Origin: a bacterium 1XD21-70 | GTDB taxonomy: Bacteria > Bacillota > Clostridia > Lachnospirales > Lachnospiraceae | Length of the DNA: 41,448 nucleotides | Direction: 5' to 3' | Assembly (NCBI GenBank): GCA_003669055.1 | Contig: RAYB01000041.1 | Span: 1 to 41,448 of the forward strand | Shown: positions 6,781-38,099 of the stretch, piece by piece | How the letters are laid out: every line of letters begins with the position of its first letter | Numbering within the stretch: position 1 is the stretch's first letter | The notes under the pieces: generated by a model | What the model was told of the DNA's origin: nothing | Seen by the model: the letters and a program-made list of their open reading frames with translations, nothing else | The model's database searches: none | Made by a program: the position numbers and the translations under genes

Positions 6781-6784
6781 TGTT

Positions 6785-8329: not shown

Positions 8330-8362
8330 GGAAAAGGCGATGGGAGATTTCCCGAAAAATAC

Positions 8363-11946: not shown

Positions 11947-11959
11947 AACCATCCCTCCG

Positions 11960-13477: not shown

Positions 13478-13520
13478 GTCTCCGATTCTCCTTTGCTCCG
13501 GTCTCGTCTCATTTGGTATC

Positions 13521-15421: not shown

Positions 15422-15422
15422 G

Positions 15423-16665: not shown

Positions 16666-16685
16666 ATTCCCACCCCCTTATTCTC

Positions 16686-21061: not shown

Positions 21062-22419
21062 GATCCACTCTCCTTAGGTTTAAACAGATTTTTATCAAAA
21101 CAAGCCTCTTTTCCTTTTACATCCTCATGATATGTCTCCGGATGATCTGCGTCAAATATCTCATTCGCCCACATCACTGTCACCATATCCTCTGTATCGC
21201 TGAGGTTTATAATATTATGAGTATATCCAGGAAGCATATACACACATTGTAACTTATCTCCACTTACTTCATACTCTCTAACAGGATAAGGCCTTCTCGT
21301 CTCAGGATCAATCCCTATTCTCCGTTCTTGTATCAAGCCGTGCCCGCTCACAACAAGAAATATCTCCATCTTGGTATGATGCCAGTGCTGGCCTTTCGTC
21401 TTTCCAGGCTTAGATACATTAATTGAAAATTGCCCCACATCCTTATTACGAAAAAAACCTGTAAAAGATCCTCTGTCATCCAAAGCACTTTTCAGATCAA
21501 AGATAGTCCTATCCTCCGGCAAATATGAAAGATATGTACTGTATAACCTCTTTTCAAAGCTATCCTGCGGAATGGATGTAAACAGTAACGATGTCGGCTG
21601 TTCGGAGAACTCCTTTAATAGTTCAACAATCCTCCCCAGTGTAACTCTGTGTGTTAACGGTACATAACAGTATTTGCCATCCTCCTTATCAAGCGGAACA
21701 GTTCCATCATACTTATCATGGCAAAATAACCCCTTTCCCAAAAACAATACTTGATTTTCCTGATATTGCTCGGCAGTTTCAGCATGATAAACCGGATACA
21801 TACACCTATGTTCTTTCCCTTCTAGTGCTCCAAGCATCTCATTAATCAAATCATCAATATATAGAAGTTCCAGTTCCACCGACGGATCATTTACTGTATA
21901 TGGTAAGTTGTTTGAGAATGCATTACAAAAAGTTGCAATTGCAGAATTATAGTTAGGTCTGCACCACTTTCCATATAAATTCGGAAATCTATATATCAGT
22001 ACCTTAGCACCTGTCTCTTCGCTATATTTGAAAAACAATTCTTCTCCGGCAAGTTTACTGCGTCCATACTCAGAATCGCCGAATCGCCCACTTAATGATG
22101 CCTGTATAGACGAAGATAACATTACAGGGCATGTATTGCTATTTCGCTTCAGTGCATCAAGCAGTTCGGATGCAACCCCAAAGTTACCTGACATAAACTC
22201 CGTTTGATCTTTTGGCCTATTCACACCTGCCAAATTAAAGACGAAATCACAGTCCTTGCAGTATCCCTCCAAATCATCAACTGTGTTGTCTATATCGTAC
22301 TCGTATATCTCTGATACCGAAAGTTCTGTGTCCCTTTTCGTTGTATCGCGAATGCACTTTAAGGTCTCTACGAGGTTTTTCCCAACAAAGCCTTTTGCTC
22401 CGGTTACCAATATCTTCAT
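21058..22419 (-). CDS. capF: Bifunctional UDP-sugar reductase/epimerase (CapF/FnlB)
   Basis: About 453 aa in two domains. The N-terminal SDR domain starts MKILVTGAKGFVGKNL, with an NAD(P)-binding GxxGxxG and a YGRSK-type catalytic site near SEYGRSKLAGEE. The C-terminal cupin domain (from about 330) contains KGQHWHHTKMEIFLVVSG, with the metal-binding histidines. This arrangement is specific to CapF/FnlB/WbjC, which epimerises C3 and reduces C4 of the CapE product. The start at 22419 follows GGAGG; an ATG at 22440 is too close to the capE stop. Confidence 0.93.
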   Translation of the reverse strand: MKILVTGAKGFVGKNLVETLKCIRDTTKRDTELSVSEIYEYDIDNTVDDLEGYCKDCDFVFNLAGVNRPKDQTEFMSGNFGVASELLDALKRNSNTCPVMLSSSIQASLSGRFGDSEYGRSKLAGEELFFKYSEETGAKVLIYRFPNLYGKWCRPNYNSAIATFCNAFSNNLPYTVNDPSVELELLYIDDLINEMLGALEGKEHRCMYPVYHAETAEQYQENQVLFLGKGLFCHDKYDGTVPLDKEDGKYCYVPLTHRVTLGRIVELLKEFSEQPTSLLFTSIPQDSFEKRLYSTYLSYLPEDRTIFDLKSALDDRGSFTGFFRNKDVGQFSINVSKPGKTKGQHWHHTKMEIFLVVSGHGLIQERRIGIDPETRRPYPVREYEVSGDKLQCVYMLPGYTHNIINLSDTEDMVTVMWANEIFDADHPETYHEDVKGKEACFDKNLFKPKESGS

Positions 22420-22445
22420 TATCAGACCTCCGTAAAACATCCAAT

Positions 22446-23510
22446 CTAAGCTTCAACCATATGTGGTCTTCCCTCAAGTTCTTCCTTCACGTAATCTGTC
22501 GTCATTATCTTTGCAACCACACCATCCACATCCAGCCTGTTAGTATTATGGCTTGTATAGGCCTCCTCCCCCTCAGTTAATACATTACCTTCAACATAAA
22601 ACTTATCATAGTTCAGGCTTCTTCCATCTGGAGTGATTTTGAAATAATTCCCCATATCAGTTGATCGTAAACGTTCCTCTCTTGTCATCAGTGTTTCATA
22701 TAATTTCTCCCCATGCCTTGTTCCAATTATTTTCTTCTCAGTTTTTCCAAAGACCTTCATAACACCATCAGCAAGGTCTCCGATAGCAGAAGCATCTGCC
22801 TTTTGAATAAATAAATCACCCGGTTCCGCATTTTCAAACGCAAAGGCTACTAAATCGACAGCCTCATCAAGATTCATTAAAAAACGGGTCATATTAGGAT
22901 CCGTTATGGTAATGGGTCTCTTGTTCTTAATCTGATCTATGAAAAGAGGAATCACGGAGCCACGTGAGCACATAACATTGCCATACCTTGTACTTGCTAA
23001 TATAGTACCACCTCTCTCGAATGCATTTTGAGCTCTAGCAGCCACAATCTTCTCTCCCACAGCCTTTGTCATCCCCATCGAATTAATGGGATAAGCGGCT
23101 TTATCAGTTGAAAGAAACACCACTCGCTCTACTCTATTCTCTACAGAAGCTGTTATTACATTATCCGTTCCAACAATATTGGTTCTTACTGCTTCCATAG
23201 GAAAGAATTCACAGCTTGGAACCTCCTTAAGCGCAGCTGCATGGAATACATAATTAGCCCCGCACATCACTTCCCGAACGCTGTCTATATTTCTGACATT
23301 TCCCACATAAAACCGGACTTTACTGGCATACTCATGATTATCTGCTTGAAGCATGTGCCGCATCATATCCTGTTTCTTCTCATCCCGTGAAATAATCCGT
23401 ATTTCACCTATTTTAGATGTAAGAAAATGTTTTAGGACAGTACTGCCAAAACTACCAGTACCACCTGTAATGACTAATGTTTTTCCGTTAAATGATTCTG
23501 TAATGTTCAT
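22446..23510 (-). CDS. capE: UDP-GlcNAc 4,6-dehydratase / 5-epimerase (CapE/FnlA)
   Basis: A 354-aa extended SDR enzyme, the first step to UDP-L-FucNAc. The cofactor motif is GGTGSFGS (about 16-23), the active site is STDKAAYPINSMGMTKAVGEK, in which Met replaces the usual Tyr as in CapE, FlaA1 and PglF, and HAAALKEVPSCEFFP lies upstream. The ribosome site is AGGGAG about 12 bases before the ATG. CapF follows about 25 bp downstream of its stop. A 59-codon ORF lies upstream. Confidence 0.93.
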   Translation of the reverse strand: MNITESFNGKTLVITGGTGSFGSTVLKHFLTSKIGEIRIISRDEKKQDMMRHMLQADNHEYASKVRFYVGNVRNIDSVREVMCGANYVFHAAALKEVPSCEFFPMEAVRTNIVGTDNVITASVENRVERVVFLSTDKAAYPINSMGMTKAVGEKIVAARAQNAFERGGTILASTRYGNVMCSRGSVIPLFIDQIKNKRPITITDPNMTRFLMNLDEAVDLVAFAFENAEPGDLFIQKADASAIGDLADGVMKVFGKTEKKIIGTRHGEKLYETLMTREERLRSTDMGNYFKITPDGRSLNYDKFYVEGNVLTEGEEAYTSHNTNRLDVDGVVAKIMTTDYVKEELEGRPHMVEA

Positions 23511-23729: not shown

Positions 23730-24743
23730 TCATACAACCTCATCCTTTGGGACATAAGTTTCAGGTGTATAGTGAACAACCTGTGTGCCGCTATCTTCAA
23801 AACAGAAAGGAATATAAAGCAAATCTTTCATTGCTTCCATTACAGATATTTTTTTATCTTCAACCACGTAGAAGACAAGAAATCCCCCTCCACCAGCGCC
23901 AAGCAGTTTACCTCCTGTAGCCCCTGCCTTTATCCCCCTATCATACAATCCATCAATACTGTCTGTTGTAATTGCTCCACCTGTTTGTCTTTTTAGTCTC
24001 CAAGTTTTATCTAATAACCGTCCAAAATCATCTAAATCGCTGTGTTTATCTTCAAGAATTCTCTCAGCCTCGTCCACCAGTTCATGCATCCGTTGCAGTT
24101 GTTTTATCTTTTCAGCATATCCAGTTGCATTTGCTTTCTGCATATCAGAACTAAAGCGTGTAAAACCCGTAAAAAACATCAGGAGATTATCATTAAGTTT
24201 CTTCTTTCTATCCGGATGGATGATAATTGGATTTACCCCATAACTCCCATCTTTGTTGAAATTTATTCTGTTCATTCCGCCAAAACTAGCCGCAATCTGA
24301 TCCTGCCATCCTCCCGCCTCATTGCAAAGAACGCGCTCAAGATAAATTGCTTCATCAGCAAGTCTTTTCTTATCCGCATACTTCCCTTTCAAACAATAAA
24401 AAGCGTTAAGCATCCCGACTGCAAAAGATGAACTGGTTCCCAATCCGCTCCGCGCTGGCAAATCAGCCTCATAAGTCAGTCTTATTTCATGCATATCAAG
24501 CATTTTCATAGCATTTCTAATAGCCGGATGATCAATATCGCTTTGTGACTTTACTCTCTCAATCTTGCTATACGATAGTTCAGTGGAATAATCAAAGAAA
24601 CGTGGAAGATGCCGAACAGTCACATAGCAATACTTATCAAATGTAGTTGATAGAACTGCTCCACCGTATTCTTGAAAGAAACTTTCCATATCTGTCCCCC
24701 CGCCAAAAAAGGACATCCGAAAAGGGGTTTTTGTAATTATCAT
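23730..24743 (-). CDS. GHMP sugar kinase, HddA-like
   Basis: A 337-aa GHMP kinase closest in motifs to D-glycero-D-manno-heptose-7-phosphate kinase (HddA). Motif 1 is KTPFRMSFFGGGTD (5-18), motif 2 DLPARSGLGTSSSF (94-107) is the ATP-binding loop, NEAGGWQDQIAASFGG is characteristic of the HddA/fucokinase group, and motif 3 is LLGAGGGGFLVFY. It would make a sugar-1-phosphate for nucleotide activation. No heptose isomerase, phosphatase or nucleotidyltransferase partner is in the window, so the real sugar is uncertain. It starts about 8 bp after the second kinase-like gene. Confidence 0.82.
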   Translation of the reverse strand: MIITKTPFRMSFFGGGTDMESFFQEYGGAVLSTTFDKYCYVTVRHLPRFFDYSTELSYSKIERVKSQSDIDHPAIRNAMKMLDMHEIRLTYEADLPARSGLGTSSSFAVGMLNAFYCLKGKYADKKRLADEAIYLERVLCNEAGGWQDQIAASFGGMNRINFNKDGSYGVNPIIIHPDRKKKLNDNLLMFFTGFTRFSSDMQKANATGYAEKIKQLQRMHELVDEAERILEDKHSDLDDFGRLLDKTWRLKRQTGGAITTDSIDGLYDRGIKAGATGGKLLGAGGGGFLVFYVVEDKKISVMEAMKDLLYIPFCFEDSGTQVVHYTPETYVPKDEVV

Positions 24744-24750
24744 TTACTTT

Positions 24751-25539
24751 TTATCTTCCCTTCTTAATTTCAAACAATTTATAAATGCTGTGCTTTTTGA
24801 TAAAAAAGAACAGCGCATAATAAATCAACATATTTTTGAGTCGGTAATTATACTCCTTGTCAAGCACATCGTTAGCATCATCCATTAGTCTTAATTTCAT
24901 TTCCGAAAGATCATCATTTTGTCGATGCCCTACGGATCTCATATAAGAGTAAACATCAAATCCTACTGGTTGGTAAAATGCTCCGAATTCAAAATCTATT
25001 AACATATATCTGTTATTAAAAAGGACATTCTCATTGTTAAAATCTCCATGTTCCAAAAACAACTTTACTCGTGGCTTCCTCGACAAAAATGCAATCCATT
25101 TTCTAAAAGCTATAAGCCTGCTGATACGTTTTCTATATTGAACAGGCCATGTCAGCAATAAATTCTCAACAATTTCCTCAATTATATAGCCATCAACCTT
25201 AGCATCCAAAGCCTGGTGATCTGAAACATCTTTTAATGATTCACATGGAACTAAATCCTTGCATAAAGCATATCCGCTATAATACTTATAAATGGCATAA
25301 TCAAAATCATATTCAAAGCTAATCTCAACCGGAAAATTAATGTCAAATACATGTTCAAAATTACGAAAAAATACTTTTTGCATAGCGATGCTTCTGTGAA
25401 GATAAAATCTTTGAGTGTCGGTCATGGCTATTACAAGAAGATATTTCTCTTTATCTGCTTTTTCTAAAACAAATGACACTGGGCATCTCGCAGTAGGCTT
25501 TATGGGTTTTAATTCAACTAATCTATACCCCCCCCCCAC
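24751..25539 (-). CDS. Aminoglycoside-phosphotransferase-like kinase, out of frame behind a poly-G tract
   Basis: A protein kinase-like fold of about 258 aa. The catalytic loop is LEHGDFNNENVLF (about 162-174) and the metal site is LIDFEFG (180-186). It is clearly paralogous to the N-terminal domain of the gene before it: TDTQRFYLHRS matches TTTQKFYLKRS and YQPVGFDVYSYMRSVG matches YQPCGFDRFDYYSSIG. It lacks the first 20-30 residues of that domain. The only possible start is a GTG at the edge of a G10 run, with no ribosome site. Removing one G would join it in frame to the upstream protein. So it is probably the third domain of a larger protein in an off or split state. Confidence 0.7.
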   Translation of the reverse strand: MGGGYRLVELKPIKPTARCPVSFVLEKADKEKYLLVIAMTDTQRFYLHRSIAMQKVFFRNFEHVFDINFPVEISFEYDFDYAIYKYYSGYALCKDLVPCESLKDVSDHQALDAKVDGYIIEEIVENLLLTWPVQYRKRISRLIAFRKWIAFLSRKPRVKLFLEHGDFNNENVLFNNRYMLIDFEFGAFYQPVGFDVYSYMRSVGHRQNDDLSEMKLRLMDDANDVLDKEYNYRLKNMLIYYALFFFIKKHSIYKLFEIKKGR

Positions 25540-27202
25540 AGATTTTTATAATTATTCTCTCTATGATTTCAATCTCCGAAATGGGTCTAACTACTCTTTT
25601 TATTACTTGTTTTATGTTCCTCTTCATTGCACCTGGAACACTTTGCAATGAAAAACCATCTTTTTGTATCAAGCCATTAAATGCTATCTCCTCTATGGCT
25701 CCAAATCTGGATTTATACTCGTACTCTCCATCTGCTAAATACAACTCCCTTATGCCATCATTTATAAGATTAACTATCGAGATATAATATAAGACAGTTC
25801 CAACGCTATAACTACGGTACTGTAAGTCGTAAGTCAAATTCTCTAAATATGCCTTATCACCAATAATGCTTAATAAGTTAATTCCTGCTATTTCTCCATT
25901 TAGATACAACACATCTGCATCTGTAATTGCATATTTTCTCACATACTCATCTGGAGTCAAATGGTAATTCGTTCCATATGTGGATAACTTAAACTCGAAA
26001 TATTTTCTAATTATTGAATTATCAATTTTGTCATGGAACCTCTTTATCTCTAATCGAAAATCGTTATCAAGTTTGTTATAATAGTATTTTCTGTTATACC
26101 TTGTTTTTTTACCAAGCGTTTTCAAGTAATCACCTTCATTATTAGGAAGTATATTTACCCAATGGTTATCAGCACTTAACCCTTTATAATCATTTTTAGA
26201 ATACATCACGTTTAAAAAGGAGACTTTCGGAAAATGATTAAAAATGTAACTAATCAGATAATTAAATGTCCTTTGCTGGATTGGTGTCAACCAGACCGCC
26301 AACTCCATTATATCTCCAGAAATATAACCTTGAATAACGAATTTTTTCCTGTCACATTCAATCACATGAAAATTAATTACATTTTCCAGACCATATTTTA
26401 TATCAAGTCTGTTGTGTATAAAGTTTGGCCTTACCATACTGTCATAATCTACATGGTCTTTTTGAATACTGATCTGAGGTAACTCCTCCTTGTCAATAAT
26501 CTCATTAATCTCATTTATCAGTTTCTGTTTTAGTACATTGAGCGAATCTGTTGCATCAGTTTCTCCAATACTTGAATAGTAATCAAACCTGTCAAAGCCG
26601 CATGGCTGATATTCCCTAAAAAACTCGTAATCCATTAATTCAAATTCATCTTCGGATTCGCTCGATAGATTATTGAAAGTAAAATCCCCATGTTCAAACC
26701 ATATATCAACTGTCTCAAGCTTGGATAACTCATGAAAGTATTTCTTAAAATCCTCCAGTTTAATTATTCGTTCCCTATATACCTCCGGAAAGCTTTGTAA
26801 AAAGTTCTCTTTTATTCTTTCTATCACCCTTTCAGAAACCACTACTGTTTCCGATTCTTTTAAATATAATGATTCTAATTTCTTAACTGGAATTATACTT
26901 CTATGCTTATAATTATAATCCCGGCAATCATACAATGCATAGAATGAGTCATTGTATTCTCCATATGCGAATGGCTGCAATATTCTGAATTTGTCCTTAT
27001 ATATTTCAGGTGCTTTTAAAGCCCAATCTACTGATCTCTTTAAATAAAACTTTTGTGTAGTTGTTTGCGCAATTACCGCATATATCTTTCTATCTTCGCA
27101 TTCGCATATGTATTTATTGGACCATCTTGATGTATCTTTAAATATATCTGTTCTAACATGGTTTATTTTGAATCCTTCATTTTTGAGTATTTGATAAATC
27201 AT
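25523..27202 (-). CDS. Kinase-acyltransferase fusion (APH-like plus GNAT/BioF2-like)
   Basis: About 559 aa; the start is set at MIYQILKNEGF with GAGG nine bases upstream (the frame is open to 27226). Residues 1-250 form an APH-like kinase with FEHGDFTFNN as catalytic loop and ELMDYEFF as metal site. From about 280 a second domain resembles the BioF2/CelD GNAT group: LKTLGKKTRYNRKYYYNKL, LYLNGEIAGINLLS, and YDLQYRSYSVGTVLYYISI. Such domains transfer acyl groups in cell-envelope or glycan modification. The protein ends in CGGGV, encoded by the G10 run, and overlaps the next kinase. It lies between a flippase gene and sugar-activation genes; the substrate is unknown. Confidence 0.72.
   Translation of the reverse strand: MIYQILKNEGFKINHVRTDIFKDTSRWSNKYICECEDRKIYAVIAQTTTQKFYLKRSVDWALKAPEIYKDKFRILQPFAYGEYNDSFYALYDCRDYNYKHRSIIPVKKLESLYLKESETVVVSERVIERIKENFLQSFPEVYRERIIKLEDFKKYFHELSKLETVDIWFEHGDFTFNNLSSESEDEFELMDYEFFREYQPCGFDRFDYYSSIGETDATDSLNVLKQKLINEINEIIDKEELPQISIQKDHVDYDSMVRPNFIHNRLDIKYGLENVINFHVIECDRKKFVIQGYISGDIMELAVWLTPIQQRTFNYLISYIFNHFPKVSFLNVMYSKNDYKGLSADNHWVNILPNNEGDYLKTLGKKTRYNRKYYYNKLDNDFRLEIKRFHDKIDNSIIRKYFEFKLSTYGTNYHLTPDEYVRKYAITDADVLYLNGEIAGINLLSIIGDKAYLENLTYDLQYRSYSVGTVLYYISIVNLINDGIRELYLADGEYEYKSRFGAIEEIAFNGLIQKDGFSLQSVPGAMKRNIKQVIKRVVRPISEIEIIERIIIKICGGGV
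25528..25537 (-). repeat. Poly-G tract (G10), candidate phase-variation switch
   Basis: Ten consecutive C on the plus strand, G on the coding strand, occupy the last codons of the kinase-acyltransferase gene and the first codons of the next kinase ORF. With G9 the reading continues TGT GGG GGG GGG TAT AGA into the downstream kinase. With G10 it stops at GTA TAG, and with G11 at GAT TAG. It is the longest homopolymer noticed in the window. Confidence 0.85.
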
Positions 27203-27228
27203 CTTTTTAGACCTCAACTTGCCCATTA

Positions 27229-28707
27229 TTATCTTTTAGCCGAAGCAACTACTAATGTTCTTATGCTCTCAATGTTAAAAATAATCAAGCCTATACATGT
27301 AGTAAACATAAAAATTGCCAGGCGTAATGCCTGAGACTCAATATAACTTACTGCAACAAATGACATAAGCATCGATAGCAAAACTGTTGGTATCAGCATA
27401 ATCATAATTCGTATATTAATCCCTTTAGTTGCAACAATATATTCTCGTTTTGTAAGAATTATAAATTGCAAAATCATAGATATATAGTATGAAATAGACG
27501 TAGCAATCGCTAATCCATATACTCCCAGGAATTTTGCAAGAATAAAGTTAAGCCCAATATTTACCAAAACACCAGCTGAATCAATAAAGACTAATACCCT
27601 TGTATCCTTTTGGACATAAAACATTTTCACCAAATAGTTTTTTATACAATATGCAATAATGCCTGGCAAATAACATATCAATAACAGTGAAATTACTTGA
27701 ATGTTCTCAGAAGTAATTTGACCTCTTCCAAAGACAATAGCAACTATATCCTTTGAAAAAAAACACATAGCCACGGCTATTGGTATAACAAAACCACATA
27801 GCAGATAATAATATTTGTTAAATACCTTTTTACTATCCTCACTCTTTTCTGCCATCATTGGATAAGCGTATGTCGAAATGATATATCCAACCACTCCATA
27901 CAGCGCTGTAGCCAATAAATTTGCATAGTTTAAACTTGCAACAGAGCCAGACATGAATCCAGAGGCCATTGATTTATCAACAATATAATTCATTTGATAA
28001 AGAACAGACACTATCAATAAAGGAAACGCCGTTTTTACCATGCCCTTTATCCTGTCATCATTTATTCTTGTATACATTTTAAAGCTATGTATTTTTGTTG
28101 TTCTGACAGCAGTCAGAAGTATTCCGACAATAACTGCTGATGAAATAATCCTAGTAACTACTATTCCCCATATTTCATACTGCCATAAAAAACAAAGATA
28201 GAGAATTATAAAAAGACTTGATATCACTCCCTCTAACGCCAAAAAAATATATATTTTATTTGCCTGAAGTAAAGTGGCAAGATAATTTATCAAAAAAATC
28301 CCGAATAGGTTGATCAAATTAATTCTTGTAATTATTACCATTTGGCTTATGTCATAAATATCAAAAAAACCTGGAACAAGAATTTTTAATAACTGTGGAG
28401 CAAATAACTCTGCAGCTAATATGATTACTGAGATAAAAAATATTCCCGCTGAAAGCAGTTTATTAGTGAGTTCGGTTCTTGTGTTCTCATTCTCCGATAG
28501 GTATGTTGGTATGAAAGTACACCCTAGAAACGTTGCAAATACGGAATATAATTCATTTATTAAACTATCCTCAAAGGAGATTACATCGGAAATATATCCT
28601 GCGCCATAATGATAGGCAATGAGCATGCTTTTAGCAAAACCCATCAATTTGCCTATTATAAGCAATAATGACATGCTAAAAAAAACTTTTAAGAATTTTT
28701 TGCTCAT
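27229..28707 (-). CDS. MurJ/Wzx-like lipid-linked oligosaccharide flippase
   Basis: About 492 aa with roughly 14 helices in the MOP (MviN/MurJ) fold. The start at MSKKFLKVFFSMSLLL follows AGGAG eight bases upstream and lies 4 bp after the deacetylase stop; the ORF is open to 28731. The early segment GKLMGFAKSMLIAYHYGAG resembles the conserved first helix loop of MurJ, and KNYLVKMFYVQKDTRV the middle of the family. It probably moves the undecaprenyl-linked repeat unit across the membrane. It stops two bases before the kinase-acyltransferase ORF. Confidence 0.83.
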   Translation of the reverse strand: MSKKFLKVFFSMSLLLIIGKLMGFAKSMLIAYHYGAGYISDVISFEDSLINELYSVFATFLGCTFIPTYLSENENTRTELTNKLLSAGIFFISVIILAAELFAPQLLKILVPGFFDIYDISQMVIITRINLINLFGIFLINYLATLLQANKIYIFLALEGVISSLFIILYLCFLWQYEIWGIVVTRIISSAVIVGILLTAVRTTKIHSFKMYTRINDDRIKGMVKTAFPLLIVSVLYQMNYIVDKSMASGFMSGSVASLNYANLLATALYGVVGYIISTYAYPMMAEKSEDSKKVFNKYYYLLCGFVIPIAVAMCFFSKDIVAIVFGRGQITSENIQVISLLLICYLPGIIAYCIKNYLVKMFYVQKDTRVLVFIDSAGVLVNIGLNFILAKFLGVYGLAIATSISYYISMILQFIILTKREYIVATKGINIRIMIMLIPTVLLSMLMSFVAVSYIESQALRLAIFMFTTCIGLIIFNIESIRTLVVASAKR

Positions 28708-28711
28708 CAGT

Positions 28712-29410
28712 TTATCTCCTGTTGATCCCATGATATATTCTTAATTTAAGCCATAACGGCAAATTCATAAAAATCTCATTCTTTATCTGCCTGCTCGAAG
28801 ACAATGCAAACGCTTCAGCGAAATCAAAATCACTTGCCATACCTCGATAATTGCTTAAAGCAATTCCCTTATCTACATAATCCACATCCGCAATTTGAGA
28901 CTTATATTGTCCTATCATTTCCCTCTTCATCTCTATAACACCTGATATGTCCAAATAATCCGATGGGTATCTTATTGGTGTCCACACCTCATATTCATAA
29001 AGTTTAGCTGATGATTTTTGCTTTTTCTTCATTGATTTAAAAATTGCATATAATACATTATGGTCTTTGTGACTTTCGTAGCGATTCGGTACAAAAATAT
29101 GTGTATACGGACTAATATCAAATTTTTTCACGACGCAAGAATTCTCACCAACCTTTTGATCTTCTATGTTAAGGAAAAATAAATTTCGGAGATTACAGAT
29201 CTTGGCAACAGACTTTATTTCGTCTTTCCTTAAATCTATAAGAACTGTTTCATCATTATAGCCTTCTGTCGTATGACCATGCCTTCCATCTGTTATTAAG
29301 AGCACATCAGACTGTTTGCCATATTTTGCCAGTAAACCACCACAACCTATGCTTTCGTCATCAGCATGCGGAGAAACAACCAGTATGCTATCATATTCCT
29401 TTATCTCCAT
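28712..29410 (-). CDS. PIG-L / LmbE family deacetylase
   Basis: A 232-aa zinc-dependent deacetylase. The motif VSPHADDESIGCGG (13-26) supplies zinc ligands and the catalytic aspartate, TDGRHGHT follows, and ESHKDHNVLY carries the third ligand. PIG-L enzymes remove acetyl from GlcNAc-containing lipids or sugars, so here it may expose an amine on the repeat unit for further modification. It lies 18 bp after the RtcB-like gene and just before the flippase, suggesting action before export. The exact substrate is not readable. Confidence 0.88.
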   Translation of the reverse strand: MEIKEYDSILVVSPHADDESIGCGGLLAKYGKQSDVLLITDGRHGHTTEGYNDETVLIDLRKDEIKSVAKICNLRNLFFLNIEDQKVGENSCVVKKFDISPYTHIFVPNRYESHKDHNVLYAIFKSMKKKQKSSAKLYEYEVWTPIRYPSDYLDISGVIEMKREMIGQYKSQIADVDYVDKGIALSNYRGMASDFDFAEAFALSSSRQIKNEIFMNLPLWLKLRIYHGINRR

Positions 29411-29428: not shown

Positions 29429-30769
29429 TCATTCCTTTAAAATAGCAACCGGAAACGTTTTTGCTAATACTGTCGCTAATCCATGCTTTTGCATCTGCTC
29501 CAAAACCAAATTCGGATCCTTGAAAGCCTTCATGTTCTGTTCAGCCATATTACCATTCCTGATTTTGAATAATGTAATGTTTTTATTTTTTAGTTCCATG
29601 CAAGTATCTGGCTCATTATAAATCCCCCTTGCAATGTGTTTATCCTGATTTCTTCCGACACCATGATTTGTTGAAAAAAAAGCTTCGTTATTCTTTGGAT
29701 TTCTTAATATAAATGATGTAGATCCCATCGCACCAGGGAGTATGCAATACTCACACTTACCAACTTTCTGTACTCCGTTTCTATGTACAATCATCCTTTT
29801 CCCGTTATGCTCTTCTACGGAAAGCATATCATGGGATTGATTGCCCATAATCTTACACTTTATTCCTTGAGACTTTGACCAGTTCTCTATTATCGCAATC
29901 CTGTTCATATCTCCGAAAAGTGATGCAATATGATGAGCAAAAATCAACTCCTTACCTACTTCACCTTTGGCAGAAATCTCCTTGTACACATTCAGGGCAT
30001 CATTTAATTTCCCCAATTCTATACGATTTTCTTTCTTATCAAGCCCTATTCTTTTAAAGTATTTATTACGTTTTATTCTGAAAAGCCCTGTAGCTATTAT
30101 TCCCTTTAAACTTGACTTGTTATTGTGTCTCATCTCAAACAAATCTGAATAAAGATTAAAAACATAATCTCCTACATTAATAGAGTCTGAATGGATCATG
30201 AAAATAAATTTTCCTTTTTGCAACCATCGTTCATCTGATTGACTATCTGCAATTTGATGTATTTCAAAAAAATGATTTCCACCTCCAAGTGTGTTAAGAT
30301 AACGTGCTGCACGATCTATTATTTCATCATTAATTACAGTCCTTGATTTCTCTATTACATCCTCTTTCTTATCTAATCCCAAAAAGTCATATAGATAAAG
30401 ATTTTCCAAAAAATCCTCTACCAACTTTGTTTCAAATTGTTCTCGTATTTCATTACTACTGTATTTGGGGAGACTAACTCTGGTTTTCAGTATTTCTGAA
30501 TATGCATTAAAACTTTTAACCAACTCATTTTTACTGTCACACTCTATACTTCCGAATGTAAATCCACAGTTTTCAACACCTAAACATGATAAGAAAATGC
30601 TATCTTCACTATAAACCAACGTTCCATTTGACATCCTGGAATTCTTTTTTAAATGTACATCCGGATAGACATATATATTGCATTTTGTATGTTCTTCAAA
30701 ATCATGTATCACATTAAGGCATCCGTCATCTGGAATTAATATACTATCTACAAACAACCTAACACCCAT
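29429..30769 (-). CDS. Divergent RtcB-family ligase-like protein in a glycan operon
   Basis: A 446-aa protein. Seen in sequence: PDVH (36-39), GVENCGF with C68, LGGGNHFFEI with N165-H166, MIHSDS with H193, HH at 279-280, VHRNGV with H329, LPGAMGSTSF (344-353), NHGVGRNQDK with H369, and AILKE with K445 at the end. These line up with RtcB metal ligands (Cys, three His), the guanylylated His in PHGAGR and the final GMP-binding Lys. The usual Asp three residues before the Cys is missing (V65; E66 is next to it). RtcB joins a 3'-phosphate to a 5'-OH using GTP and Mn2+. No archease, RtcA or RtcR gene is near. It overlaps the HprK-like gene by 11 bp. Confidence 0.8.
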   Translation of the reverse strand: MGVRLFVDSILIPDDGCLNVIHDFEEHTKCNIYVYPDVHLKKNSRMSNGTLVYSEDSIFLSCLGVENCGFTFGSIECDSKNELVKSFNAYSEILKTRVSLPKYSSNEIREQFETKLVEDFLENLYLYDFLGLDKKEDVIEKSRTVINDEIIDRAARYLNTLGGGNHFFEIHQIADSQSDERWLQKGKFIFMIHSDSINVGDYVFNLYSDLFEMRHNNKSSLKGIIATGLFRIKRNKYFKRIGLDKKENRIELGKLNDALNVYKEISAKGEVGKELIFAHHIASLFGDMNRIAIIENWSKSQGIKCKIMGNQSHDMLSVEEHNGKRMIVHRNGVQKVGKCEYCILPGAMGSTSFILRNPKNNEAFFSTNHGVGRNQDKHIARGIYNEPDTCMELKNKNITLFKIRNGNMAEQNMKAFKDPNLVLEQMQKHGLATVLAKTFPVAILKE

Positions 30770-31745
30770 TTTTTATTATCTCCTTTGCCATCGCCAACCC
30801 ATTTTCAGGAATGTAGAGATTAAAAATCTTAATTCGCATGGTCTTTTCTTCTTTTCTTCCATCTGAACATATATAACCCCATGGTGCCATCAACCTATTA
30901 GCCCTCTCTATCTCTGGAGCTGTATTTAAGAATAACGTCCAAATAACAGCATTTTCGGATATCTCCTCGACATGTGGTGTCTTTCGCTTTTGATCTCTAA
31001 TTAAGTTATAAAATCTATCAACTATGACTTCCCCAAATCCTATATTATCGGGTAATATTTCCTTAAACCCATTAAACTTTAATACTGTTTGGTATTTAGA
31101 CTCTGTATCCGAATCAATTCGCATAGCAATATTAAAGTTAAGGGCAGTAATACCATTAAACATAACTATGTTGTCTGCAAGAATATCCCCTTCTTCAGAA
31201 GACAGCGAATTTGCCATCGTGCTTTTGCCCACCCCATCAAGTCCGGCCAGGACTATATTTTTATCTTTCAAACGAATCAAACTACCATGTATACAATAAT
31301 ATCCGTAACATGCAGCATATGCCGATAACAACGGGAAGAGATATCGATTATAAAAGACCCCGCTATTATTTCTGTATTTCATTTCTTCGTTTAAGCATAG
31401 AAACTTTTTGACAATTTGTTTTCCCTGAAAGATAATTGTCTTATTCTGTATGTATTTAATCCTTATCGAATTTGGGGTGCATATATACTCAAGATTGTCT
31501 AAAACAATTCTCCCATCATCCATTTTAAAATTTCTGGAAACATATAATCTCTTTTCAACAGCTTCATTAAAAGTTTTAACAACATCCCTATTGAAAATCT
31601 CTATTTCCCAATCACCAGAGTTGACATTCACTGTTTTCTTGACATAATTCTGTAATTGACGAGAAACAAATATTCCAATTTCATCTGAAGGAAAGGCGAA
31701 AACACTGTTTCCTAACAACGGAAAATCAAATATGCAACCATTCAT
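30759..31745 (-). CDS. HprK/PEPCK-like P-loop protein
   Basis: A 328-aa protein. About 1-140 have no recognised domain. From about 150, HGSLIRLKDKNIVLAG leads into the P-loop GLDGVGKST (168-176), then the ILADN segment with D191, matching the ILADD-type site of HPr-kinase-like proteins. Relatives occur in peptide and polysaccharide clusters, distinct from the true HPr kinase, and are presumed to phosphorylate small molecules or proteins. It has GGGGAG upstream of the ATG and lies 6 bp after a GT4 gene. The tight overlap with the RtcB-like gene suggests that they work together. The substrate is unknown. Confidence 0.72.
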   Translation of the reverse strand: MNGCIFDFPLLGNSVFAFPSDEIGIFVSRQLQNYVKKTVNVNSGDWEIEIFNRDVVKTFNEAVEKRLYVSRNFKMDDGRIVLDNLEYICTPNSIRIKYIQNKTIIFQGKQIVKKFLCLNEEMKYRNNSGVFYNRYLFPLLSAYAACYGYYCIHGSLIRLKDKNIVLAGLDGVGKSTMANSLSSEEGDILADNIVMFNGITALNFNIAMRIDSDTESKYQTVLKFNGFKEILPDNIGFGEVIVDRFYNLIRDQKRKTPHVEEISENAVIWTLFLNTAPEIERANRLMAPWGYICSDGRKEEKTMRIKIFNLYIPENGLAMAKEIIKNGC

Positions 31746-31751: not shown

Positions 31752-32837
31752 TCACTCCCCAAATCGTTCAAGATAAATTTTTGTAATCTTTTCGATGTCG
31801 TACTTATTCCACCTTTCATGCTCGAACTCTTTAATTCTCTGCCTTACTTGTTCATCATCTATATACTTTTTCATTGATAAATACAGGCTTTCATCATCAT
31901 TTTTCTCAGATATCATCAGCGGATTATTCTCAAGAATCTCGGACACCCCATCATTAGGTGTTGATATTATGGGTGTCTCAGCGGCAAGTGCCTCAGCGGC
32001 CACCATGCCAAATGATTCATTATCAGAGGGTATAAGCAACAAATCTATTTCTTTGTAGATGTTTTTTATATCTTTTCTCTCTCCTATCACTAAAATATCA
32101 TTTTCCAGTTTTGCATTCCTAATATAATCAATTACAGACATCTTATATTGTTCATCTACCGATGAACAAAAAACATTATCTCCTACCAGCAAATATTTGA
32201 TTTTTTTATGATCTTTGATAAGTCTTTCTACGGCCTTAACCCCTTTTAATTGTCCTTTAATTTTTTGAAATCTTGCTATCGTAGCAATAACAAAGATCTC
32301 ATCGTCAATATCATATTCTGACCGCAGTCTGCCTTTTTCTGAATAGTGGTATATATTTGATGGAATTCCCAGGTTGCTAACTATAGTATTTTTTACACCC
32401 ATGGATTGAAGATTAACTTCACATGCTTTGCTGACGCAAAAAATGGTTTTATTACATATCTTCAACGCATTGCTGGTCAACCTGTTTAATACGTACCACT
32501 GTCCATGACATGTCCAATAATTACCCTTTATAATTCCAAACCCAGCTATATAAAACAAGATAGATGTCAGCATCCCATTGCTGTGTACTATTTCAATTTT
32601 TTGATTTTTTAATACTTTTCTTATTTCAATAATATTTCTAATCACACGCTTTTTGCAGAGAAAATTAATAATATACGTTCCAAATCCCTTTTCAGAAAGA
32701 CATTTCACCAAGTCCCCATTTGAATTACAAAACAATACAACTTTATTGTTCGTTTTAGGCAGGTTATCAATTAAGTTTAATAAAAAGGTCTCCCCTCCGC
32801 CGAATCCAGATAAATCCGATGTAAATGCAATGTTCAT
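31752..32837 (-). CDS. GT4 family glycosyltransferase
   Basis: About 361 aa with GT-B fold. The start MNIAFTSDLSGFGGGE shows the usual glycine-rich loop; an ORF extension to 32894 runs into the polymerase gene. Donor-site features are VIATIARFQKIKGQ and SDNESFGMVAAEALAAETP, carrying the EX7E-type glutamates. Most likely a retaining enzyme using a UDP- or GDP-sugar. It follows the polymerase gene and precedes the HprK-like gene. Confidence 0.88.
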   Translation of the reverse strand: MNIAFTSDLSGFGGGETFLLNLIDNLPKTNNKVVLFCNSNGDLVKCLSEKGFGTYIINFLCKKRVIRNIIEIRKVLKNQKIEIVHSNGMLTSILFYIAGFGIIKGNYWTCHGQWYVLNRLTSNALKICNKTIFCVSKACEVNLQSMGVKNTIVSNLGIPSNIYHYSEKGRLRSEYDIDDEIFVIATIARFQKIKGQLKGVKAVERLIKDHKKIKYLLVGDNVFCSSVDEQYKMSVIDYIRNAKLENDILVIGERKDIKNIYKEIDLLLIPSDNESFGMVAAEALAAETPIISTPNDGVSEILENNPLMISEKNDDESLYLSMKKYIDDEQVRQRIKEFEHERWNKYDIEKITKIYLERFGE

Positions 32838-32906
32838 ATACGTACCACCTTTTGATTTATATGATGAATACAAACCATTTTCAGAATTTTTCAATCCAGA
32901 TAATAT

Positions 32907-34019
32907 CTAAAACTGCAACGCAAAGTTACCAACGGAACCTGGAATGCCAATCATATAAGCATCTACTACCTCCATGAGCATCCAACCTAGGCAAAAAGCG
33001 TACATGAGTTTTTTATTATTTTGAAAATAAATCTTGCTTCCAATTCTTTTGCAATTAGAATCATATAATTGCATTCCCGTCTTGTAATACATAGGTAAAT
33101 ATAGCAATAGAATCCTATATACTGCCGAATACTTCAAATTTAATGGCAAAAATATCAAGGTCGTCATCAAAACGATTTCATTAAAGGAGTAATTAATTTC
33201 ACTATAATGCTCTCTTTTAATAAATAAAACAAGGAATAATAATGACAAAAAAATACCTTTTGCAAAGCCAAGATGGTTATCATACACTTGTGCATAAAGA
33301 CTAAAATATCGCGGAATAATGTAATTCATCAATAACAACTCCATCACAATTCCACATGCCAAATATACTCGCATAAAGGCTTTTGGATTCAGTTTTCCAA
33401 GCCTGCATACCGCTACAGGTATAAAGGAGAATATCAAACCGATTGATGCATTATGAAATGAAACAGCCAATATCATCAGAAAAACTGACTTTACATATTT
33501 TTTTTGCTCCAATGCGATAAAAAACAAACAAGAAATACAAACTGCAACCTCCGCCCTCATCAAATGAAATAATAAAAACAAATGAGAAGCAATTAAATAT
33601 GTTCCTAAATAGCTAATGATATTTTCTTTCCTGATTTCTATATTTTTTATGAATATCCAGATACAAACAAACCCTATTGTGTGAATAACAAACAAACAAT
33701 ATCTATAATCGTCTGTAAAATATCTAACACACCAGTTTAATATACAATAACCAAATTCTTCCCTCGATGTTGCAATATAAGAAAACAAATCCTCAGATGC
33801 TTTGTTGATAAAAGCATACTGATAATATATAGCATCGTCACCTCCAAAACCCAAATCTATTTTTCTAAATACAGAAGCAAAAATGTAAGTTACATATCCT
33901 ATCAATAACAAAATATCCCCTATATGCGAATGTTTTCTTCTGATTTTAAGATCATATGCTTTTCTAAATACTATTGTTAAAAAAACAGATAGTATGGCTA
34001 TATATAAATACCCTGTCAT
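32907..34019 (-). CDS. EpsG/Wzy-like polysaccharide polymerase
   Basis: A 370-aa protein with about ten helices. Features shared with the EpsG family are FRKIDLGFGGDDAIYYQ (about 51-67), where the family usually has a GXDXXXY loop, the downstream EEFGYCILNW and HNASIGLIF segments. It would join repeat units on the outer membrane face. No other polymerase candidate exists in the operon, which supports the assignment. Sequence conservation in this family is low. Confidence 0.75.
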   Translation of the reverse strand: MTGYLYIAILSVFLTIVFRKAYDLKIRRKHSHIGDILLLIGYVTYIFASVFRKIDLGFGGDDAIYYQYAFINKASEDLFSYIATSREEFGYCILNWCVRYFTDDYRYCLFVIHTIGFVCIWIFIKNIEIRKENIISYLGTYLIASHLFLLFHLMRAEVAVCISCLFFIALEQKKYVKSVFLMILAVSFHNASIGLIFSFIPVAVCRLGKLNPKAFMRVYLACGIVMELLLMNYIIPRYFSLYAQVYDNHLGFAKGIFLSLLFLVLFIKREHYSEINYSFNEIVLMTTLIFLPLNLKYSAVYRILLLYLPMYYKTGMQLYDSNCKRIGSKIYFQNNKKLMYAFCLGWMLMEVVDAYMIGIPGSVGNFALQF

Positions 34020-34035
34020 AGTGTCTTTTCCTCAA

Positions 34036-35124
34036 TCACACCTTTCCTATATATTCATATAGCGGCAACAGAATACTATCCCAGCTATAATGCACCTGAA
34101 TCAATTTATATGCATTTACGCCTATCGTATCAGGGTTGATTTTTCCGTTTTTTATATGATAAAGCATTGCTTCAAATTCCTCATTTGTATTAGCAATCAA
34201 ACAGTTTTCACCATTAACGCATCCCTCAATAGCATAAAAATTGTCTTCAAATCCAATAACACATTTTTTATATGAAAAAGCTTCCAGCACTTTATTTAAG
34301 ATACCATTTTTCTTTTTTACAGTTGAAATAAAGATATCAATAGAATTATAGAACTCATCTAATTGCTCAACTGCACCTAAAACTTTAACAAACTCATATT
34401 TACTCAAAACATTCTTCTGGCTATTAGAAATATTTCTACCTGCCAGAATTAATTTAACCTTAATTTCATTCTTATTATTTATTGCTTCACATATTGATAA
34501 CATAGGATAAATGCATTCGTCCATATAATCTACAGTCCAATAACCAATAAAACCTAATACTATTTCTTTTTCAAAATCATGCTTTTTATTTGTAAAAAAA
34601 TCTGTTACATGTATTCCATTAGGAACCGTGATAATATCCGCTTTAATCTTTCCATAGCCATTAGAGACTTTATCAGCATCCCATTTAGATGCATAAACCA
34701 TACATTTGCAGTTTCTTGTTAAATATTTTTCTTTCATTCTATACGGAATGAGACGTAATATTCTTTTTATACTATTTGCATTAATTGTTTTCCCCATCAG
34801 CAATGAAAAAAGAGTCCCAAAATATAGACTGTCTCTCGTAAGAGAAACAAGCATTGCACGGCACCGCTTGTCTAATATTTTCGATATAGCATACGATACA
34901 TTCAATCCATAAGCCAATATCGCTTTGACCTCATTTTCAGTAATAATTGTCCCGATTATCCTCCTATATTTGTTATATTCTTGAATGTTATATCTGTACG
35001 GCATTTTCAATATTCTCACATCATAATATTGAGAAAACATTTTTATGTACTCACTTATTGGTAAGTATAAGCCGCCTATCGATTCATAGTTCTCCGGCAC
35101 AGCCAAAACTATCACCTTAAACAT
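34036..35124 (-). CDS. GT4 family glycosyltransferase
   Basis: A 362-aa GT-B enzyme. It has VYASKWDADKVSNGYG, VPNGIHVTDFF as the inter-domain segment, LGFIGYWTVDYMDE where the donor domain begins, and NKVLEAFSYKKCVIGFED, the EX7E region. It lies 16 bp upstream of the polymerase gene. The N-terminal domain is divergent, as expected for the acceptor side. Sugar unknown. Confidence 0.85.
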   Translation of the reverse strand: MFKVIVLAVPENYESIGGLYLPISEYIKMFSQYYDVRILKMPYRYNIQEYNKYRRIIGTIITENEVKAILAYGLNVSYAISKILDKRCRAMLVSLTRDSLYFGTLFSLLMGKTINANSIKRILRLIPYRMKEKYLTRNCKCMVYASKWDADKVSNGYGKIKADIITVPNGIHVTDFFTNKKHDFEKEIVLGFIGYWTVDYMDECIYPMLSICEAINNKNEIKVKLILAGRNISNSQKNVLSKYEFVKVLGAVEQLDEFYNSIDIFISTVKKKNGILNKVLEAFSYKKCVIGFEDNFYAIEGCVNGENCLIANTNEEFEAMLYHIKNGKINPDTIGVNAYKLIQVHYSWDSILLPLYEYIGKV

Positions 35125-35142
35125 ACGTATCTCCCTCGTAAA

Positions 35143-36192
35143 CTATTTTGATATTTCGATAACACTTGATACCACTTTTGCCCAAGGTGATTCAATATTA
35201 ATCGAATATGGTTCTCCTCTTCTAGCATTCTCAGATTTTTGCAGTATTTCGGATAAATCATCACTATCATTAAAAAACTCAACATTTGAATAATCGGCCA
35301 GTATTTCTCGTGCATACGGCATATTGCGAGCAATTATAGGTGCCCCATAAGCCATTGCTTCAACAAAAGGAACCGGAAACGACTCAATATCAGAAGCAAA
35401 TATTAACCCATGGTCGCAGAACAAATCTAATAAGTTTCCTCTTTCTTGAAATCCAATAAATTTGACATTAGACAATCCTTTTGACATAGAAGCCAATCTT
35501 TCTGCATAGACATTATCTGATTCTCTAAAAGTAAATATTATTTCTCCTTTATATTGTTTTCCCTTTTTTAACGATTCAATTATTATTTCATGCTTTTTAT
35601 ACACCAATGGCCCACATGGATAAACAAACCCCTTAACCCTACATCTATCTACTACTGGGGTCGTACTGATAGCTGGTGGAATGCATATTATTTTTTTGTT
35701 CTTTATCCTCTTTTCCAATCCTGATTTTATTGTATTCGTTTGCGTGATTATTAAATCGCTTTGATTTAATGATCTCATAGTTATTGGAGTAACCAAAGAA
35801 CAATATATGCAATAATATCTTTCAAACTTGTTAAAGATATTAAAAGTTCCTCTTTTCAATAAATGCAATGCGTTATGGAAATACACAACCTGAGGTACAT
35901 TCTTCACTGGCATTGATTTATTTTGTAATGATAAAATCACATGCGCATCACAGCTATTAACAATCTTGCGAAAATCTGAATACTCCCACACTATTCTATG
36001 AATCCAACTCTTTTTTATTCTTTTCTCCTGTATTACATGAATACCATCCGCCTCATCTAATTTTACAACTGAGGTAAAAAAAAACCATTCTACGCCATTC
36101 ATTGGATTCTCTTTAACATAATTATAAAAATCAGTTAATACAGATAATGCACCAGTTTTTTCAGCCGCAACATCTACTACAATAATATTCAT
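35143..36192 (-). CDS. GT4 family glycosyltransferase
   Basis: A 349-aa GT-B enzyme. VVDVAAEKTGALSVL begins the acceptor domain, QVVYFHNALHLLKRG resembles mannosyl- and galactosyltransferases of group 1, CIPPAIS is the linker, YPCGPLVYKKHEI the donor-domain start, and SDIESFPVPFVEAMAYGAPI the EX7E motif. It sits 26 bp after the WbuB-like gene. Sugar unknown. Confidence 0.86.
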   Translation of the reverse strand: MNIIVVDVAAEKTGALSVLTDFYNYVKENPMNGVEWFFFTSVVKLDEADGIHVIQEKRIKKSWIHRIVWEYSDFRKIVNSCDAHVILSLQNKSMPVKNVPQVVYFHNALHLLKRGTFNIFNKFERYYCIYCSLVTPITMRSLNQSDLIITQTNTIKSGLEKRIKNKKIICIPPAISTTPVVDRCRVKGFVYPCGPLVYKKHEIIIESLKKGKQYKGEIIFTFRESDNVYAERLASMSKGLSNVKFIGFQERGNLLDLFCDHGLIFASDIESFPVPFVEAMAYGAPIIARNMPYAREILADYSNVEFFNDSDDLSEILQKSENARRGEPYSINIESPWAKVVSSVIEISK

Positions 36193-36218: not shown

Positions 36219-37433
36219 CTATTGTCTTTCTGATACGCTATGTAAAATAATATCAGATGATACTGAACTACTATAATACCGTCTCAAGAAATCATACTCC
36301 CCATTTCTATCTTTAGAATAATCTTCTATCACCTTCATAATATTCATTTTAAATGCTCTGACATCATTACTTTCACACCACCAGCCAAAACCATTATCTG
36401 TTATAATATTTCCAATGTCTGTGTTTGGATCCGTAACAGCCAATACAGGAATTTTTGCCTGCATATAGCTTAACAACCTACTAGGGAAATTCGGTATAGT
36501 AAACCTATGATCCAAGAAAATCATGCCTGCATCGCAGGCTCCTACCATAGTATCGTAGTCTTCCTTTGGCATCCTCTTCATCAGTTTCAAATTCTTCTGC
36601 TTACTGGTATTAACATATTCTTCAAGTGTTCCATACTCTGTCCCGTCGCCAACGATAAGAAAATATGCTGCATCAATATCAGAGCATTTTTTCAGGCACT
36701 TGATTAGGAACGGGATTCCCTGTGGTTTTCCAAGATTACCTCCGTAAATAAAGACCTTCCTATCAAGCGGTATTCCATATTTTGAGCGAATCTGATTTCT
36801 TGTTTCCTCATTTACACTCTTATCAATCACATCAATAGAATTTGGGCAAACCTCCACTATCTTTGGATCAATTTCCGGATTATGTGTAATCACATAATCC
36901 ACATTAGCTTGACTCATGCAACCAATTTTATCTGATATCCTATATAGCTTCTTCTCCTGCTTTTGAAAATGCTTATAAAGCATCCCCTTAATGCCGGTTG
37001 TAGACATCATTCCAATATCAACAGCATTCTGGGGAAATATGTCTTTTAGGAGCAAATATGTTCTTGCACCATCATGGCTCTTTACATATTCGATGGCCGA
37101 AATAAATGTTATCGGCGGAGTGGAATACAATACAAGGTCAAACCTCACATCTGAAAAGTACTTCTTAATGGCACTCTTGAATGTAGGCGCAATCATTATT
37201 GTCGAAATACCCTTTTCTATGATATTAGTCTTTTGAATGTTCCCGGTCTTTAGGCGCAGGATATTCACACGGTCTTCTGTGACCACATGTGTCCCGATGC
37301 CCTCCCTCTTCTCTATGGGCGAAATCGCAAATACATCATGCCCGGTTTTAACAAATTCACGAAGTAAATCCGTATATATGTTCCTTTCTTGCAGCGACTC
37401 AAAACCCAGCAATGTTAAGAACAAAATGTTCAT
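36219..37433 (-). CDS. GT4 glycosyltransferase, WbuB/WcaI-like
   Basis: A 404-aa GT-B protein. LLKDIFPQNAVDIGMM, CMSQANVDYVITHNPE, VCPNSIDV and FIYGGNLGKPQGIPFLI are the characteristic blocks of the WcaI/WbuB group. WbuB of Escherichia coli O26 is assigned as the L-fucosamine transferase. Since this operon makes UDP-L-FucNAc through CapE-F-G, this is the best candidate to transfer it, but that is inference. It is the first dedicated transferase after the NeuD-like gene. Confidence 0.83.
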   Translation of the reverse strand: MNILFLTLLGFESLQERNIYTDLLREFVKTGHDVFAISPIEKREGIGTHVVTEDRVNILRLKTGNIQKTNIIEKGISTIMIAPTFKSAIKKYFSDVRFDLVLYSTPPITFISAIEYVKSHDGARTYLLLKDIFPQNAVDIGMMSTTGIKGMLYKHFQKQEKKLYRISDKIGCMSQANVDYVITHNPEIDPKIVEVCPNSIDVIDKSVNEETRNQIRSKYGIPLDRKVFIYGGNLGKPQGIPFLIKCLKKCSDIDAAYFLIVGDGTEYGTLEEYVNTSKQKNLKLMKRMPKEDYDTMVGACDAGMIFLDHRFTIPNFPSRLLSYMQAKIPVLAVTDPNTDIGNIITDNGFGWWCESNDVRAFKMNIMKVIEDYSKDRNGEYDFLRRYYSSSVSSDIILHSVSERQ

Positions 37434-37460
37434 ATACCAAATCCTCTTTCCCCTACAAAT

Positions 37461-38090
37461 TCAAGAACATACCGTGTCCATTCTTTTTGCCGGTAATCCT
37501 ATATATTTTCCACTTTCCCCAATATCTTTCACCACTACCGCTCCTGCCCCTATTAAAACATCATCACAGATTTTCAAATTGTTGCTCACAACGGCTCCCG
37601 GCCCTACCCAACACTCATTACCAATTACAACGGTTCCGCAAATATGTGCCCCCACCGAAATATGGCTCCAATCCCCTATTATGCAGTCATGGTCTACAGA
37701 ACTTGATGTATTAATAATCACGCCTTTTCTAATCTCAGACCCTGGATTAACCACAGCGCCTGCCATAACTACCGTACCATCTCCGATCGGAATGCTTTCG
37801 CTAATAAATCCTTTGGGGTGGATAAGCGTTGCGACCACACCGCCATCAGCCTCAATCTTTTCTTGTATCCGCTTTCTATGCTCGTGATTACCTATCGAAA
37901 CAAAGAATTCCGTTTCTTCATTCATATAATGATAAAAATCTCTCGAAGTTCCTATTACATCATATTCCCCACACTTTTTTACAACAGAGTTGTCATCCAA
38001 AAAGAGTAAATCCGAATATCTTCCACATAGTTTGGCTATCTCAGCACATACTTTTCCGTGTCCGGAAGCCCCAATCAAAACCAGCCTCAT
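37461..38090 (-). CDS. NeuD/PglD-type sugar O/N-acetyltransferase
   Basis: A 209-aa left-handed beta-helix acyltransferase. An N-terminal Rossmann-like domain starts LVLIGASGHGKVCAEIA (3-19). Hexapeptide repeats run from about 95 to 195: VVMAGAVVNPG, SVDHDCIIGDWSHISVGAH, CWVGPGAVVSNN and VLIGAGAVVVKDI. It ends in YIGLPAKRM. Together with the PglE-like aminotransferase and the PglC-like transferase it fits UDP-N,N'-diacetylbacillosamine synthesis; the 4,6-dehydratase for that path is not separately present, although one could lie outside the window. Confidence 0.87.
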   Translation of the reverse strand: MRLVLIGASGHGKVCAEIAKLCGRYSDLLFLDDNSVVKKCGEYDVIGTSRDFYHYMNEETEFFVSIGNHEHRKRIQEKIEADGGVVATLIHPKGFISESIPIGDGTVVMAGAVVNPGSEIRKGVIINTSSSVDHDCIIGDWSHISVGAHICGTVVIGNECWVGPGAVVSNNLKICDDVLIGAGAVVVKDIGESGKYIGLPAKRMDTVCS

Positions 38091-38099
38091 GCCACCCTC

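Follow-up and report, generated by a model that had tools for sequence, protein, structure and literature searches.

RtcB proteins are ligases in which a histidine takes GMP from GTP and transfers it to a 3′-phosphate, giving an activated end (ppG) from which a 5′-hydroxyl then displaces the GMP (PMC8668186, PMC10944509), and in the parts of the RtcB literature examined the substrates are RNA or DNA ends. In human RTCB, the D119A mutant shows weak guanylylation and no ligation (PMC10944509), while in T. barophilus RtcB the R237C variant crosslinks to the 5′-OH RNA strand (PMC12135372). A chemistry in which one gene product makes a phosphate and another consumes it is described for lasso peptide clusters (pseudomycoidin), where the phosphate that an HPr-kinase homologue puts on a serine is then used by a nucleotidyltransferase (PMC8498205). 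A role of RtcB in glycan synthesis was not found among the listed titles and abstract openings of the literature searched, a scope in which subscription journals were mostly not included and which does not prove absence.

The window, i.e., the whole stretch of 41,448 nucleotides analysed here, carries an RtcB-like gene among genes for surface glycans. The features around it are as follows.

19859..23510, minus strand: Epimerase_2, Epimerase/Polysacc_synt_C and Polysacc_synt_2 proteins (Pfam), which we take to be CapG/F/E-like
23730..24743, minus strand: GHMP sugar kinase, nearest to HddA heptose-7-phosphate kinase (150.2 bits vs. a cut-off of 600)
24751..25539, minus strand: APH-like phosphotransferase (PF01636, 26.8 bits)
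25523..27226, minus strand: APH-like domain fused to a GNAT (Acetyltransf_6) domain (PF13480), with residues 18–280 being 30% identical to the adjoining APH-matching gene
27229..28731, minus strand: MurJ-like flippase (PF03023, 154.8 bits)
28712..29410, minus strand: PIG-L family deacetylase (PF02585, 63.6 bits)
29429..30769, minus strand: RtcB-like protein, 446 aa (PF01139 profile match and match to RtcB structures)
30759..31745, minus strand: HprK-like P-loop protein, 328 aa (PF07475, 20.1 bits; TIGR04352, 18.0; TIGR04355, 17.5; all below cut-off)
31752..36192, minus strand: three GT4 glycosyltransferases and an EpsG-type polymerase (Pfam)
36219..39021, minus strand: GT4 glycosyltransferase, PglD/NeuD-type acetyltransferase and Bac_transf sugar transferase (profile matches)

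The initial annotation had placed the gene among glycosyltransferases, a flippase and a deacetylase, and Pfam bears this out (GT4s, MurJ-type flippase, PIG-L). Eleven minus-strand genes, from 36192 down to 23730, overlap or are separated by gaps of at most 18 nt: the RtcB-like gene begins 11 nt before the HprK-like gene ahead of it ends, and the PIG-L deacetylase gene begins 18 nt past it. Between 31745 and 28731, the minus strand shows no terminator-like site; in the rest of the region, such sites (13 vs. 9.7 in shuffles) and promoter-like sites (66 vs. 80) are about as frequent as in shuffled sequence. We infer that the RtcB-like gene is co-transcribed with the operon. Moreover, the GC content is 0.30–0.38 from 23 to 38 kb (2-kb windows) and 0.53–0.60 at 1–18 kb, and this difference between the glycan stretch and its GC-rich flank suggests that the former is an exchanged cassette. 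Neither archease nor RtcA was detected among the 20 other window proteins run against Pfam, and no Rfam family reached its gathering score in the window. A defence role was considered and set aside, the best PADLOC E-value among the four proteins searched being 5.2e-5.

Some further features of the window were recorded in passing. A 121-aa frame at 39641–40006 (minus strand) resembles by eye the first part of the Bac_transf sugar transferase encoded intact at 38296–39021 (minus strand), of which it looks like a broken duplicate. The overlapping APH-like genes at 24751–25539 and 25523–27226 (minus strand) are paralogues (30% identity over residues 18–280), one of them with the GNAT fusion; in 200 genomes of the family, the pair has one other match at 1e-8 (G112:C39), in a frame with one stop. 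Finally, the GC-rich flank carries at 8363–18015 (minus strand) a gene run that reads by eye like Mrp-type antiporter subunits.

The reading frame at 29429–30769 is intact over 446 codons, whereas no open frame exceeded 132 codons when the same bases were shuffled 2000 times; an AAGGAG ribosome site lies ten bases 5′ of the ATG, and the GC content by codon position resembles that of the neighbour genes. The attribution to the PF01139 family made in the initial annotation is confirmed by a full-length profile match (131.7 bits vs. a curated cut-off of 27, E = 5.6e-38, positions 13–425 of 426). The RtcB fold claimed there also agrees with the structure model (mean pLDDT 82.1, below 50 in residues 218–262), for which the top 16 Foldseek matches are all RtcB chains (4dwq and 15 others; E ≤ 3.4e-15, TMq 0.63–0.73) and the first match after them stands at E = 1.0; since 65 other RtcBs were in the alignment from which the model was made, such a match is expected and is not independent evidence. 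The product is thus predicted to be a true, though extremely diverged, enzyme of RtcB fold belonging to a surface-glycan operon.

The extent of the divergence was assessed by aligning the RtcB-like protein to 123 other RtcBs, which were taken from genomes, from viral contigs and from plasmid records. Across the 72 columns conserved at 95% or more in these 123 sequences, which were mostly gathered by similarity to the RtcB-like protein and do not sample the family at random, it keeps 39 and is changed at 33, against a median retention of 72; the next lowest values are 61 (11 changed), for a second RtcB of the same genome, and 62, for the RtcB of a congener. The losses are unevenly spread: the core (His-GMP pocket and metal ligands) is kept at 10 of 11 positions vs. 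29 of the 61 other conserved columns (hypergeometric p = 0.0075, for core positions taken from published structures but selected after the alignment was seen). The ten retained residues, i.e., Cys68, Asn165, His166, Glu169, His193, His313, Ser352, His369, Gly372 and Lys445, comprise the nucleophile, the metal Cys, three His ligands and the N/E/S/G/K of the GMP pocket, and correspond to residues that bind metal or contact GMP in the human and P. horikoshii enzymes (PMC10630183, PMC8668186, PMC10944509). Roles were transferred to the RtcB-like protein through alignments and by motif, as listed below for the main positions.

30569..30574, minus strand: Glu66-Asn67 in place of the Asp-Ile-Gly of relatives, with the metal-B Asp lost or moved and the loop one residue shorter (alignment)
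30566..30568, minus strand: Cys68, shared metal ligand (E. coli C78; alignment, role from PMC10630183)
30272..30277, minus strand: Asn165-His166, GMP phosphate contact and metal-B ligand (P. horikoshii 202–203; alignment)
30263..30265, minus strand: Glu169, guanine contact (human E230; alignment, role from PMC8668186)
30191..30193, minus strand: His193, metal-A ligand (P. horikoshii H234, E. coli H185; alignment)
30179..30187, minus strand: Asp195-Ser196-Ile197 replacing Gly-Ser-Arg, Ile197 being at the position of the Arg in contact with the 5′-OH RNA strand (alignment, Arg role from PMC12135372)
29831..29833, minus strand: His313, metal-A ligand (P. horikoshii H329, E. coli H281; alignment)
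29663..29665, minus strand: His369, guanylylated His (E. coli H337; alignment, numbering from PMC8668186)
29435..29437, minus strand: Lys445, guanine contact (human K504; alignment, role from PMC8668186)

The near-complete active site proposed in the initial annotation holds for C68, N165, H166, H193, H369 and K445, which align to active-site residues of the family, but not for its other histidines: the columns of H279/280 are gaps in all 36 relatives of one alignment, and H329, there counted among the active-site positions, is the conserved His of an HRKG motif and, like H279/280, not a metal ligand; the metal-A ligand H313 had been overlooked. The loss of a conserved Asp near the metal Cys was correctly noticed. 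The metal-B Asp (E. coli D75), present in all 123 other sequences, is absent, and the motif GVDIGCG of most relatives reads GVE-NCG (D-I-G-C to E-N-C). What had not been considered is that Glu66 could stand in for this Asp, and the changes in the HSGSR motif had been overlooked as well; the new Asp195 might also act as a replacement at metal B; the view that the loss means changed chemistry is plausible given the human D119A mutant, but a neighbouring Glu may substitute. In the HSGSR motif, Gly is changed to Asp195 and Arg to Ile197, so that the Arg contacting the 5′-OH strand (T. barophilus R237, E. coli R189), four residues past the metal-A His, is an Ile here. Further changes affect the counterparts of E. 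coli Lys299 (to Asn) and Arg345 (to Lys).

Relatives sharing these changes were sought in samples of 24 genus, 299 family, 391 class and 398 phylum genomes (own genome counted, some genomes shared between samples), and none was found, the best other match per sample scoring from 66.2 to 83.4 bits. Two scans of 84,980 genomes, which detect only relatives bearing the exact words searched, gave the same outcome: 56 stretches and no relatives for the peptide scan, and 11 stretches for the motif PGxMG-x19-HG[V/I/F/L/M]GR, two of them RtcBs, both with normal GVDIGCG and HSGS. In viral contigs, the peptide scan and two motif scans returned no relatives, while an alignment scan returned at least 461, of which the best 80 are all at or below 30% identity. 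In addition, 33 plasmid and 99 phage records matched, all under 60% identity, with 30 and 12 matches, respectively, listed at 22–28%. In a tree of 73 sequences, the end branch of the RtcB-like protein measures 8.54 changes per column (median 0.23), and two opposite placements are both retained (p-AU 0.788 and 0.724). A clade restricted to glycan clusters could not be shown because no relative with these changes was found. With regard to gene context, no gene of the 19 RtcB loci compared in the family (L033–L051), flanks included, clusters with any of the 14 window genes around the RtcB-like gene. BLAST searches of 19 island genes at 1e-4 gave one match against these loci, a 61-residue hexapeptide stretch (L047), and one GT4 match (L063) against eight loci of the class (L061–L068).

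Ordinary RtcBs provide a control for the genomic location. The second RtcB of the genome (C11:50546-51625, 215.1 bits) belongs to the same family as the RtcB-like protein but keeps 61 of the 72 columns, the core residues, the metal-B Asp and the Arg contacting the 5′-OH strand. A gap of 145 nt separates its gene (9532–10884 in locus L052) from a Wzt-type ABC gene downstream, which heads a series of glycosyltransferase, NTP_transferase, GHMP kinase and SIS genes (469–9386), so that both RtcBs of the genome adjoin glycan genes. A functional link of this second RtcB with glycans was rejected, as no gene in 12 other RtcB loci clusters with its neighbours. Likewise, in a genome of the same class (L063, 4697–12154, minus strand), a row of polysaccharide deacetylase, GNAT, Wzy_C, GT4 and WecA-type genes is followed, at a distance of 191 nt and in the same orientation, by an ordinary RtcB; this RtcB, one of the 123 aligned, was discarded as a second glycan RtcB, its active site being normal and the locus of a congener (L062) having no such genes upstream. 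Adjacency alone, as these two cases illustrate, proves little, and what sets the RtcB-like protein apart is its place inside an overlapping gene run together with its changed residues. RtcB contexts are varied across the loci compared: in 5 of the 12 other loci, a gene whose tested cluster member matches the Suv3 RNA helicase lies near RtcB, as does an Hsp20-type gene. Of the 19 RtcB loci compared in the family, 17 and 15 contain members of two gene families without annotation (about 415 and 330 aa), and 10 a Band_7-type gene; none of the three was found in L061–L077 (of which L069–L077 have flanks of 1.5 kb only). A reading of the pair beside these RtcBs as “WYL regulators” is unproven, each having matched no family in one Pfam test.

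The overlapping HprK-like gene (30759–31745) encodes a P-loop, GLDGVGKST, and a motif LADN, at the site of which HprK carries ADD. Its match to TIGR04352 (18.0 bits, below the cut-off of 200) is confined to residues 149–197 around the P-loop, and its single-sequence model (pLDDT 31.9) is too low to use. Weak matches occur in 3 other genomes of 240, and no relatives were found in plasmids. The HprK-like assignment is thus weak, and this protein, too, may be altered, given the LADN/ADD difference.

How should such a protein be understood? The RtcB-like protein keeps the parts for the first two RtcB steps, except for the metal-B Asp, and, for the third, is without one RNA-strand grip. Given the overlap with a kinase-like gene, the simplest reading is the activation of a phosphomonoester made in the operon, and our best, if tentative, explanation is a diverged guanylyl-transferring RtcB whose substrate would be a non-RNA phosphate, possibly the product of a kinase of the locus. 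The protein would bind GTP, form a His369-GMP intermediate and pass the GMP to a phosphomonoester on a glycan, carrier or substituent; the phosphate would have been placed by a kinase of the same operon, with the overlapping HprK-like gene as first candidate, and a hydroxyl would then attack the ppG-activated phosphate to leave a phosphodiester-linked substituent. This activity, substrate and partner are what we infer from the full-length PF01139 match, the RtcB fold, the selective core retention, the change from Arg to Ile, the tight gene packing and the lasso peptide precedent (an HPr-kinase homologue, then a phosphate-using nucleotidyltransferase; PMC8498205). Against it stand a single sequence, with no relative bearing the same changes found from genus to phylum samples and in two genome scans; the missing metal-B Asp, which human RTCB needs for ligation, unless Glu66 replaces it; an HprK-like call resting on 18–20 bits around the P-loop; and the two ordinary RtcBs with full active sites that adjoin glycan genes. 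The non-RNA phosphate ligation imagined in the initial annotation is partly supported as a possible reading, being consistent with the kept guanylate pocket, the lost RNA-strand Arg, the overlapping kinase-like gene and the ordinary RtcB elsewhere. The complete scheme, in which the glycan locus would have recruited the His-GMP chemistry of an RNA ligase, with the HprK-like kinase phosphorylating a hydroxyl and the RtcB-like enzyme capping the phosphate with GMP, then joining it to another hydroxyl or releasing a GDP-sugar, we regard as doubtful.

At face value, 33 changed columns (vs. 11 in the sequence ranking second), a terminal branch of 8.54 (median 0.23), a lost metal-B Asp and no relatives found with the same changes would rather fit a pseudoenzyme or a protein under relaxed constraint, i.e., a former RtcB that kept its fold and perhaps GTP binding in the glycan locus, and is now structural, regulatory or on its way out. 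We consider this unlikely, as the 446-codon frame is intact, with its ribosome site and neighbour-like codon-position GC, and core residues are kept more often than other conserved columns. A retained fold and His-GMP pocket are equally what one expects of an RNA-repair ligase located in the glycan locus by chance, all the more so as RtcB contexts vary and two ordinary RtcBs adjoin glycan genes; the L063 case led us to lower slightly our trust in the guanylyl-transfer reading and to raise slightly that in RNA repair. Nevertheless, the latter seems distinctly unlikely: the RNA-strand Arg is now Ile, E. coli Lys299 is Asn and the metal-B Asp is lost, the gene, in contrast to the two ordinary cases, belongs to a series of eleven whose gaps never exceed 18 nt, and RNA repair need not depend on it, given the ordinary RtcB of the genome. 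Lastly, the RtcB half-reaction (His-GMP and phosphate to ppG) could make a GDP-sugar from a sugar-1-phosphate supplied by the GHMP kinase of the operon, which requires no joining to a 5′-OH strand and so fits the lost Arg; none of the genome's 19 NTP_transferase matches is on the contig of the window. Yet these 19 matches, one of them beside a second GHMP kinase (C11:42937-44588), weakened a missing guanylyltransferase as main reading, and the locus may extend past the contig end, so that we hold GDP-sugar synthesis to be highly improbable.

Judged by its sequence, the RtcB-like protein is a diverged variant of a known family, of unproven function. If the preferred guanylyl-transfer reading is true and a glycan or another non-nucleic-acid phosphate is the target, RtcB chemistry gains a new substrate class and glycobiology a GTP-dependent way to phosphodiesters, i.e., a further route to those of surface polymers, in addition to nucleotide-activated phosphotransfer and polyol-phosphate transferases. 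If the enzyme is dead, it shows how far the RtcB fold can drift with its nucleotide pocket kept. With the RtcB RNA ligases of known structure (P. horikoshii 4dwq/1uc2, human RTCB 8odo, Thermus TTHA1785 2epg), it has in common the fold, the His nucleophile, the Cys and three His ligands and the Asn/Glu/Ser/Gly/Lys of the GMP pocket; it differs from them by the absence of the metal-B Asp and of the RNA-strand Arg, by 31 other changed conserved columns and by its place inside a glycan operon. The lasso peptide pair offers a working analogy, a kinase-like gene standing beside a phosphate-using gene in both cases, but there the second enzyme is a nucleotidyltransferase and not an RtcB, and the substrate is a peptide (PMC8498205).
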